64,000 nt of DNA, from positions 62,001 to 126,000 of the forward strand of contig WFUF01000014.1 in NCBI GenBank assembly GCA_015485155.1. The letters run 5' to 3'. Shown here in pieces: positions 6,554 through 52,865 of this stretch. The translations under genes and the position numbers were made by a program. The number at the start of each line of letters is the position of its first letter. Positions within the stretch are counted from its first letter, which is position 1. The notes under the pieces were generated by a model. It did not search any database and was not told where the DNA came from. It saw nothing but the letters and a program-made list of their open reading frames with translations. This DNA is from Robiginitomaculum sp. (GTDB lineage: Bacteria; Pseudomonadota; Alphaproteobacteria; Caulobacterales; Maricaulaceae).

Positions 6554-6697
6554 GTTTATCCCCGTGGTGTTTTACTTAAAATCTGGCAGACAATTTGCGC
6601 CAAAGCCATTAAGAGCCAGTGAATCAATTATCGGTTTGGGTGTCGCTATTAGTTCCGAATCATTGTTTTACAATAAAAGGGCAAATCAGGGGGCTTG

Positions 6698-6904
6698 ATG
6701 GGCATAAAGATCACATTGAATGTCATGCTGGCACAACGCAATATGAAAGCCAAGGATCTGGCAGAATTTGTCGGTATCACCGAGCAAAACCTGTCATTGC
6801 TGCGCACAGGCAAGGTAAAGGGTGTACGCTTTTCCACATTGGCCAAAATCTGCGAGGCGCTTGACTGCAAGCCCGGCGATATTCTGGACTTTGAGTCTGA
6901 CTAA
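6698..6904 (+). CDS. Small XRE-type DNA-binding protein, YozG-like
   Basis: A 68-residue protein that is almost entirely a Cro/C1 helix-turn-helix: NVMLAQRNMKAKDLAEFVGITEQNLSLL covers helices 1-3, followed by FSTLAKICEALDCKPGDILDFE, a signature of the small YozG/YdaS-like group. The ATG at 6698 follows CAGGGGG; the TTG at 6695 is less likely. In other genomes such proteins often sit beside a membrane protein, but here the neighbour upstream is a divergent PBP gene and a repeat array follows the stop within two bases. Target genes cannot be inferred. Confidence 0.8.
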   Translation: MGIKITLNVMLAQRNMKAKDLAEFVGITEQNLSLLRTGKVKGVRFSTLAKICEALDCKPGDILDFESD

Positions 6905-6905
6905 A

Positions 6906-7036
6906 GCATTTTTAGCAAAAGTGGGAAGTTTTTTTGTGTCCTACCGCCTAGCGGCTAGTTGAGGGAATCCTTAATGTCCTATCGCTTCGCTACTTGAGGG
7001 AATCTTTAATGTCCTATCGCTTCGCTACTTGAGGAC
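6906..7036. repeat. Half REP palindrome followed by three hairpin units (array 1)
   Basis: A palindrome left arm (GCATTTTTAGCAAAAGTGGG, 6906-6925) is followed by three related 26-29 bp units at about 6938-6966, 6976-7001 and 7011-7036. Each begins TCCTA(C/T)CGC and ends CTACTTGAGG or a one-base variant. The second and third units are 35 bases apart and nearly identical. Unit 3 is closed by GTCCT/AGGAC; units 1 and 2 end in GAGGGA, which still pairs through a wobble. CGGGTTTTGCGC follows and resembles the palindrome's right arm, so the array appears nested in it. Two comparable arrays occur near 12.6 and 15.5 kb. Confidence 0.7.
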
Positions 7037-7120
7037 GGGTTTTGCGCTAAGAGTGGTTGCTAAATTTTCGCTATTTCCTCCGAGGCAATTGCAAGGGTGG
7101 ATTTAAGGATCGAAGTTGCA

Positions 7121-12448: not shown

Positions 12449-12531
<83 letters not shown>

Positions 12532-12535
<4 letters not shown>

Positions 12536-12705
12536 TTTTTGTTTCCTAGCGCTTGCTGCTTGAGGAGTATTTGTTTCTCCTACCGCTTCGCTACTTGAGG
12601 AGTCTGTTTCTCCTATCGCCTAGCGGCTACTTGAGGAGTCTTTGTTTGCGTTAGCGCGATGGTAAGCCTCGCTATTTTTAGTGCGGTTTTGCGGCCAAAA
12701 ATGGT
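12532..12705. repeat. Hairpin-unit array 2 nested in a 10-bp inverted repeat next to tRNA-Leu
   Basis: A perfect 10-bp inverted repeat (ACCATTTTTG at 12532-12541 and CAAAAATGGT at 12696-12705) encloses three 25-29 bp units at about 12543-12567, 12577-12602 and 12610-12638, and a degenerate fourth before 12680. Units 2 and 3 close with CTCCT/AGGAG, where arrays 1 and 3 use GTCCT/AGGAC. The inner part varies between GCTTCGC and GCCTAGCGGC, both self-pairing. The left arm of the outer repeat uses the CCA end of tRNA-Leu. The segment 12291-12448 upstream of the tRNA shows nothing recognisable. Confidence 0.7.
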
Positions 12706-15305: not shown

Positions 15306-15554
15306 GCATTTTTAGCAAAAGTGGGCACCGGTTTTGCGGCCAAAAATGCGACAGATAAGGAATTTTGCATTTTTAGCAAAAGTGGGTACCGGTTTTGCGG
15401 CCAAAAATGCGACAGATAAGGAATTTTGCATTTTTAGCAAAAGTGGGAAGGTTTTTTGTCCTATCGCCTAGCGGCTACTTGAGGACTCTATGTTTGTCCT
15501 ACCGCGACGGCAAGCCTCGCTACTTGAGCGCGGTTTTGCGGCTGATAAATGCAG
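15306..15554. repeat. 61-bp tandem REP palindromes plus hairpin-unit array 3
   Basis: Two full copies of a 61-bp unit begin at 15306 and 15367 and differ at one base. Each folds by GCATTTTT/AAAAATGC with an inner GCAAAA/TTTTGC stem. A third copy begins at 15428 but is interrupted after GTGGG by hairpin units at about 15458-15486 (closed GTCCT/AGGAC) and 15496-15530. The missing right arm (CGGTTTTGCGGC, AAATGC) resumes after the units, ending near 15554. The AAAAGTGG/ACCGGTTTT core is common in Rhizobiales intergenic repeats. Nothing else is seen between the MFS and ferredoxin genes. Confidence 0.8.
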
Positions 15555-43127: not shown

Positions 43128-43266
43128 TAGGGAATTAGTTTTCTTTGCATTTCCTCACATTACCTCAATCACCTATTAAACATTGAATTTACTGCTAAAA
43201 TACTGTTTACTAGATGTATGATCGGGCATTTGTCAAACGGACGGATTACCTGATTTTACCTAACTT

Positions 43267-43287
43267 GTGCTACCTATGTGCTACCTG
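43267..43287. promoter_or_regulatory. Tandem GTGCTACCT arm-type repeats, left end
   Basis: GTGCTACCT occurs twice, 11 bases apart (43267-43275 and 43278-43286), directly upstream of the integrase start. The same 21-bp arrangement recurs at 52845-52865 beside the other attachment site. Paired direct repeats of about 10 bp near each att core are typical arm-type binding sites for the N-terminal domain of tyrosine integrases. Overlap with the int promoter region would also allow autoregulation. Confidence 0.6.
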
Positions 43288-52766: not shown

Positions 52767-52844
52767 TACCCTTTATATATCTATCTCTAACTATCTTTTG
52801 TGGGGAAGAAAGGGGTGCGGAAATTACCTGAAATGACCTTTGCT

Positions 52845-52865
52845 GTGCTACCTATGTGCTACCTG
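52845..52865. promoter_or_regulatory. Tandem GTGCTACCT arm-type repeats, right end
   Basis: The same pair of GTGCTACCT repeats as at 43267-43287, in the same orientation and with the same 11-base spacing, 47 bases from the right attachment repeat. The identity covers all 21 bases although the surroundings differ, which argues for selection as integrase-binding sites. Nearby TTACCTGA motifs may be weaker additional sites. Confidence 0.6.

Follow-up and report, generated by a model that had tools for sequence, protein, structure and literature searches.

Hairpin-unit arrays nested in the loops of REP-type palindromes in Robiginitomaculum sp. and its sister genome

In the Robiginitomaculum sp. 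genome that contains the window (the whole stretch of DNA analysed, 64,000 nucleotides) and in its sister genome, arrays of a small hairpin unit are as a rule enclosed by the two arms of a REP-type palindrome. Our preferred reading, to which we assign a probability of about 0.5, is that a unit was captured in a REP loop in the ancestor of the two genomes, that the composite then spread, and that the arrays have been growing and shrinking in tandem.

The arrangement is seen most fully at 15306-15554 of the window, where the initial annotation had described hairpin units interrupting a REP palindrome that is also a 61-bp tandem repeat. The locus consists of the following parts:

15306..15349, + strand, REP palindrome 1 (left arm 15306-15325, right arm 15329-15349, loop base C)
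15367..15410, + strand, REP palindrome 2 (loop base T), starting 61 bp after palindrome 1
15428..15447, + strand, left arm of the filled third REP
15448..15457, + strand, T-rich linker AAGGTTTTTT from the left arm to the first unit
15458..15485, + strand, hairpin unit 1 of the 28-nt type, GTCCTATCGC-CTAGCG-GCTACTTGAGGA, outer stem closed by C15486
15486..15495, + strand, 10-nt linker from unit 1 to unit 2
15496..15530, + strand, hairpin unit 2 of the 35-nt type with the GACGGCAAGCCTC loop, outer boxes GTCCT / AGCGC unmatched
15531..15552, + strand, right arm of the filled third REP, GGCTGATAAATGC variant

The palindromes at 15306 and 15367, which read GCATTTTTAGCAAAAGTGGG-NACC-GGTTTTGCGGCCAAAAATGC, and the third left arm at 15428 are spaced by exactly 61 bp (Tandem Repeats Finder on the window: 15306-15447, period 61, 98% matches, score 277), and the hairpin of palindrome 1 has a minimum free energy of -10.9 kcal/mol as DNA (z -1.88). 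In a plain REP, the NACC loop sits between GTGGG and GGTTTTGC; in the third palindrome, this 4-nt loop is swapped for the 10-nt T-rich linker, unit 1, the 10-nt linker and unit 2. The main points of the initial annotation, including the exact 61-bp period, were therefore all borne out, with three corrections of detail. It had the third palindrome split after GTGGG; the right arm does resume at 15531, but the insert replaces the loop, so that there is no simple split. It had recognised a single unit type, which is true of the 28-nt unit 1 but not of unit 2, which belongs to the longer GACGGCAAGCCTC type with unmatched GTCCT...AGCGC, and the range that it gave overshoots the right arm by 2 bases.

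All three arrays of the window (15306-15554, 6906-7050 and 12543-12703) are tied to REP arms. The other two, with the tRNA gene that adjoins one of them, are:

6906..7050, + strand, second composite (left arm, three units, apparently decayed right arm)
12449..12535, + strand, tRNA-Leu gene directly 5' of the third array
12543..12703, + strand, third array, units without a REP left arm behind the CCA-TTTTT of tRNA-Leu

The second composite starts two bases past the stop codon of a 69-aa ORF (6695-6904), and the third array closes with a degenerate unit followed by a REP right arm (12683-12703). An 11-bp tandem repeat, TGTGCTACCTA, also occurs twice in the window (43266-43286 and 52844-52864), the second time near a tRNA gene.

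The two repeat families are distinct in sequence. The unit is made of the boxes GTCCTAYCGC and GCTACTTGAGGAC flanking a small, variable stem-loop and is preceded by a T-rich stretch, and the REP-type palindrome is about 44 bp long with a conserved core AGCAAAAGTGGGNACCGGTTTTGCGG. The outer stem of the unit covaries: outside the sister genome, of the 14 distinct units whose left box is not GTCC, 10 carry an exactly complementary right box, and a GCGC box is accompanied by GCGC (Fisher p = 2.5e-5 outside the sister genome and p = 0.003 in the window's genome, related sequences being counted as independent). In the window's genome itself, the covariation is blurred, with fully complementary boxes in 13/33 distinct non-GTCC units and 10/29 GTCC units. 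Single units of the window folded little or no better than their shuffles (z 0.29 to -1.19); the case for unit structure is the covariation, not folding energy.

The genome-wide survey that the initial annotation had proposed was run in the window's genome (G000; 2.39 Mb, 27 contigs) and in its sister (G006; 77% complete, its hit coordinates coinciding with those of a MAG labelled Robiginitomaculum sp. S012), and nesting turned out to be the rule in both, with both REP arms at 52 of 91 fetched arrays in G000 and 53 of 75 in G006, counted over the fetched surroundings of pattern-search clusters (in G000 229 kb in all). Exact matches to the unit pattern, TCCTAYCGC-N(2-20)-GCTACTTGAGG, numbered 106 in G000, and matches to the REP core with up to 3 mismatches numbered 48; since the reversed control patterns gave 0 in each case, the nested units of this genome are not a product of chance. 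Both genomes share the recurrent architecture [L-R-spacer]n-L-linker-[unit-linker]n-R, in which L and R are the REP arms. In G000, the modules run from plain REPs through the left arm, a linker of 10-14 nt and units mostly 8-11 nt apart to the right arm, with head-to-tail arrays reaching eight units. The left-arm core stood within 45 nt upstream in 72 of the 91 G000 arrays and the right-arm core within 75 nt downstream in 58, while 13 arrays had neither and 8 lay near a sequence edge; the 75 arrays of G006 included 65 with the left arm, 60 with the right and 3 with neither. The unit core starts 11-17 nt past the arm in 71 of the 72 G000 arrays with a left arm, and the 58 right-arm cores are found at 3-6 nt from the unit core (48 cases) or at 27-63 nt (10 cases), some of the latter past a decayed last unit. 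Counted from the palindrome, a unit comes within 80 nt after 72/139 loosely defined left-arm cores in G000 and after 67/117 in G006. An open frame runs through the element at 9 of 81 unit-bearing element loci, so most elements lie outside open frames. Overall, the palindromes agree with the generic description of REPs (48 copies in G000, folding with z -1.88 and -1.78, mostly non-coding), and the presence of both arms near 52/91 and 53/75 arrays agrees with that of a repeat nested in a target palindrome.

Outside this pair of genomes, the two families go separate ways. Exact units were present in 10 of 61 genomes (G000 and 60 relatives), exceeding nine only in G000 and G006, and at least 10 REP copies were present in G000, G006, the congeners G009 and G014 and, outside the genus, G040. 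The two congeners have REPs and few units (44 REPs and 4 units in G014, 18 REPs and 6 units in G009), and none of their inspected units lies inside a REP. In G014, a unit followed the left-arm core in 0 of 62 cases (40 REP loci and 4 unit loci); it is on this count that the unfilled state of its REPs rests, because the other REP motif, used for the flank comparison of this genome, detects unfilled REPs only. A search for orthologous element sites in G014 gave three weak flank matches, with no shared site among them. The G014 loci L343-L355 share the REP core and differ in their outer arms, which are mutually complementary (GCAATCCT/AGGATTGC, GCATTTCC/GGAAATGC).

The left arm was found upstream of 0/26 arrays from other same-genus genomes (fetched loci, not every unit of those genomes) and of 0/100 arrays from other genomes among the matches listed, and the right-arm core within 75 nt of 2/26 and, again among the matches listed, 6/100. 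The larger set comes from at least 105 stretches, of which 80 loci were listed and 15 G006 loci excluded; because 5 loci labelled Robiginitomaculum NORP30/NORP327 (NORP30 being G009) were kept in it, the two sets overlap in part. Beyond the G000/G006 lineage, therefore, units occur mainly outside palindromes and with no relation to REP loops, which is what the initial annotation had named as contrary to its idea of units inserting into palindrome loops. A class-wide draw yielded exact units in 6 of 384 other genomes, 2 to 8 in each. The REP core AAGTGGGNACCGGTT occurred in 8 of 141 other genomes, with at least 2 copies in 5 of them (the reversed control occurred once each in 4 genomes). Unit matches were also obtained in 3/9 genomes of a small family sampled in place of Rhodobacterales. 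In two Hyphomicrobiales MAGs (L078, L124), a second unit in inverted orientation, with GCGCT/AGCGC boxes, comes after the first, giving a REPIN-like pair. Among the matches listed, units, some of them repeated, also appear in MAGs labelled Euzebyaceae (L061, L108, L119, L137), a family of Actinomycetota; transfer or contamination could account for them.

In the preferred reading, the element is a two-level mosaic of a REP-type palindrome, also present unfilled in congeners, and an independent hairpin-unit family, which exists REP-free beside tRNA/rRNA genes and in intergenic regions of scattered alphaproteobacterial genomes. A unit would have taken the place of a REP loop in the ancestor shared by G000 and G006, and the composite, with the REP arms as its terminal inverted repeats, would then have been copied to dozens of sites by an agent that we did not find. 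Both kinds of REP, plain and filled, and the units would multiply or vanish in tandem at the individual sites, probably through slippage or unequal recombination. The repeats may also act as rearrangement junctions, although they are places where the assemblies break.

The differences between sites on which this sequence of events draws are directly visible between the two genomes, the element flanks of which are mostly 92-98% identical. Of the G006 elements, 20 have flanks that correspond on both sides to a single G000 element locus, and 18 of these 20 orthologous sites differ in module number or order when written as motif strings. The initial annotation had also looked to strains lacking the insertion, and one orthologous site answers to this: at C2:164651, G000 has a lone unfilled REP and the same flanks in G006 hold L-unit-R-spacer-L-three units-R, a difference that could reflect a fresh insertion. 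The window locus itself offers no simple empty-site comparison, since at the ferredoxin locus beside the window element no MFS gene was found within 1.5 kb downstream in G006 and 14 other congeners. Element-free sites were not seen among the fetched loci, all of which had been chosen as element-bearing.

Alternatively, the unit may move as a non-autonomous hairpin element and enter the loops of existing hairpins again and again, with REP loops and 23S insert hairpins as its targets, which we consider rather unlikely. The dozens of filled REP loops in G000 and G006, the unfilled and filled states of C2:164651 and the units within 23S inserts near positions 180 and 1290-1346 (see below) are what such targeting would predict. 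The same holds for the right-arm variants of plain REPs and their filled neighbours, which agree in 9/13 pairs against 5.6 expected in G000 and in 5/10 against 3.3 in G006; this slight local agreement favours in-place filling or local conversion. Moreover, the filled copy at C12:18387 retains the TACC loop of its neighbour, and two close right junctions retain CCGG. However, the right junctions are mainly of one type: in 40 of 58 cases in G000, TTTT is preceded by GACGG(G)G or CGCGG(G), as opposed to ACCGG in plain REPs. A structural target may be involved but is not needed to explain junctions largely of one kind, as these are what a single capture followed by spread would give. Where the upstream plain REP has T or C as its loop base, the filled copy has the same base in only 1/9 cases in G000 and 0/7 in G006, so that the filled copies do not resemble local insertions, a test that is weak if the insert supplies its own AAG and deletes NACC.

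Loop targeting is further opposed by the left arm at 0/26 and 0/100 arrays outside G000/G006 (in the partly overlapping sets, the latter among the matches listed) and by the 0/62 left-arm cores of G014 followed by a unit. Nor did inverted repeats enclosing the arrays show a clear excess over swapped flanks, either in other genomes (6 of 87 arrays above the 95% point, about 4 expected) or in the rest of the genus (2/23); the same test gave 2/73 in G000 and 1/69 in G006, where it shows nothing, the flanks swapped in being themselves REP arms. As for the 23S inserts, their sites also tolerate inserts as such, and 0/6 units were inside the 23S gene in 14 operons drawn by 23S match. The proposal that units target loops is thus partly supported, by the nesting in G000 and G006, the one unfilled/filled site and the 23S inserts, with the arrays of other genomes and the REPs of G014 against it.

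The positions of units beside stable-RNA genes lead to another explanation, namely that the unit belongs in the first place to stable-RNA operons as a hairpin of their RNA, maintained by selection and perhaps signalling processing or stability, its presence in REP loops being a by-product. We regard it as unlikely, although the covarying outer stem is in line with such a role. The Rhodobacterales units are located in rRNA operons. In 12 such operons (those with a full 23S match among 18 loci selected for carrying a unit, analysed with a looser motif), 24 units were counted, all of them rRNA-sense; in 22, the 3-nt outer box pairs fully. Six stand 56-62 nt before the 23S gene, five inside it (two near 180 and three at 1289-1346), three 24-77 nt after it, and the rest farther away. 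The 23S-internal units are at L102, L106, L083, L136 and L066, and units of the rRNA spacers at L066, L070, L074, L089, L099, L102, L106, L111, L123, L136 and L140. The insertion sites near 180 and 1290-1346 presumably correspond to helices 9 and 45. When the five 23S inserts were folded, the unit was within extended hairpins (z -0.55 to -5.75), but much of it was predicted to pair with the rest of the insert and not with itself, which speaks against this explanation. A sample unselected for the unit consisted of 14 plasmid-borne rRNA operons, taken from 40 listed of 377 records with a 23S match and chosen to vary genera. It yielded 6 units in 4 operons, all sense and 485-2310 nt before the 23S gene (reversed control 0), with none inside the 23S and none at the 60-nt position; as 10 of these 14 operons have no unit, the unit is dispensable in rRNA operons.

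Other units adjoin tRNA genes. In the other same-genus genomes, 7/20 clusters are found 13 nt 3' of a same-strand tRNA gene (1/77 for control positions), and this spacing is common to all 7 tRNA-linked clusters, which again would suit an RNA signal. In G000, 5/74 clusters are near a tRNA, all of them 3' and on the same strand (control 2/265), and in other genomes 14/85 (control 18/296). Units start about 10 nt past the tRNA CCA, after a T-run and on the tRNA strand, at L168, L177, L179, L182, L184, L187 and L189 and in the window (12449-12641). At L172, L184, L187 and L177, a stretch resembling a tRNA 3' half (GGTTCGAGGTT...CTCACC..CACCA) adjoins the unit, as if the tRNA end had been copied along with it. 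The strand of the unit relative to the RNA is, however, opposite in the tRNA and rRNA settings, which argues against one simple RNA role, as does its narrow distribution (exact matches in 6/384 other class genomes) against a signal of stable-RNA operons. At gathering score, Rfam recognised only two tRNAs in the window and only rRNA and tRNA in the 18 unit-bearing loci.

Quite unlikely, in our estimate, is a broader proposal in which the unit is a mobile hairpin that moves as RNA or single-stranded DNA without a RAYT and settles at the ends or loops of hairpins, such as tRNA 3' ends, 23S insertion loops and REP loops. If true, the filled REPs would be an unusually dense record of hairpin-in-hairpin insertion.

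REPs are often regarded as RAYT-driven. A search for the RAYT transposase gene (Y1_Tnp, PF01797) covered the 61 genomes of G000 and its 60 relatives as well as 49 genomes with units, of which 5 possess it, and a RAYT association of the unit was rejected, as none of the 12 + 13 RAYT loci fetched contained a unit. An ordinary RAYT-mobilised REP/BIME/REPIN system would fit in size, copy number and palindromy, and the lower strand of the unit, with CAAGTAG before the inner hairpin, recalls the GTAG tag as given in the available text of PMC3733652. It is nonetheless very improbable: no Y1_Tnp match was found in G000, in G006 (77% complete) or in 44/49 unit-bearing genomes, the 25 RAYT loci are free of units, and the GTAG of the unit is situated within the covarying outer stem instead of forming an unpaired terminal tag. 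Furthermore, the units and REPs of the element follow each other head-to-tail on one strand, and not in the alternating or inverted orientation of BIMEs and REPINs.

Several junctions are rearranged between the two assemblies. Six G006 elements join flanks from different G000 elements, two of them via repeated flank sequence. Cases with one unmatched flank, with flanks matching at only about 80-87% or with a junction between two G000 contig ends (L294) entered neither this count nor that of the 20 orthologous sites. One of the remaining four elements is that of the window locus, the right flank of which adjoins in G006 the flank of G000 C2:43921 (G006 L330, L331); the separation of its flanks reflects either recombination at the repeat or an assembly error. 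At G006 L308 (C25:175 kb + 201 kb) and L335 (C19:36 kb + 40 kb), the junction links flanks from the same side of two elements, the outcome expected of an inversion between elements in opposite orientation. Rearrangement between G000 and G006 is suggestive only, because both assemblies may break or misjoin at repeats. That the nested arrays as a whole are an artefact of collapsed or misjoined repeats, to which the rearranged G006 junctions and the 16/54 G000 contig ends within 600 bp of a fetched element might point, is hardly credible, as the nested units stand within contigs, between unique flanks, and were found again at 20 orthologous sites of a second assembly.

Two palindromic repeat families have, then, expanded together with no RAYT found, and G000 and G006 form a close pair displaying array-length change at fixed sites. 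The hairpin shared by rRNA operons, 23S inserts and tRNA 3' ends ties intergenic repeats to the question of how 23S intervening sequences (IVS) originate, which becomes testable through strain comparison.

Intervening sequences of 23S rRNA are described in Alphaproteobacteria, with RNase III likely involved, in the available text of PMC6191907, and an IVS in helix 45 is described for Coxiella in that of PMC4990558. The unit resembles them in being part of inserts at two 23S sites (near 180 and 1290-1346, known by position only) in five Rhodobacterales operons, and differs in its REP-nested arrays outside rRNA genes; an IVS is defined by excision from rRNA. With BIMEs and REPINs, the element shares the mosaic of short palindromes and linkers, the mostly non-coding location and the high copy number; unlike in these, the units are direct repeats rather than inverted pairs, and no RAYT was found. 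The parts of PMC5082802 and PMC12306157 available to us deal with other alphaproteobacterial REPs and the general REP definition and contain nothing resembling the unit. Among open PMC papers searched by sequence or topic and judged by titles and abstract openings, no description of the unit family or of such arrays was found. Palindromes nested in palindromes are, in contrast, already known from Di Nocera et al. (2013; PMC3733652), the available text of which describes two superfamilies of tagged REPs, those with the CGTC tag having no dedicated transposase. Like the CGTC-tagged REPs of Alphaproteobacteria in that text, the unit is alphaproteobacterial, palindromic and devoid of a dedicated transposase; unlike them, its sequence has no CGTC tag, no stem beginning with AT pairs after the tag and no CCA tail, which mostly ends those REPs. 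The same text describes REPs within longer palindromes, namely GTAG-15 dimers in A. variabilis, GTAG-23 in T. roseum and CGTC-1 dimers in H. neapolitanus. As far as it goes, these cases agree with ours in that a short palindromic repeat lies in the middle of a second repeated palindrome and, for T. roseum, in that unfilled target palindromes exist, here in congeners. They involve single elements or dimers of the GTAG and CGTC families, whereas the Robiginitomaculum element has another unit sequence, arrays in which as many as eight units (in G000) follow each other head-to-tail and, often, tandem plain REPs upstream of the filled one.
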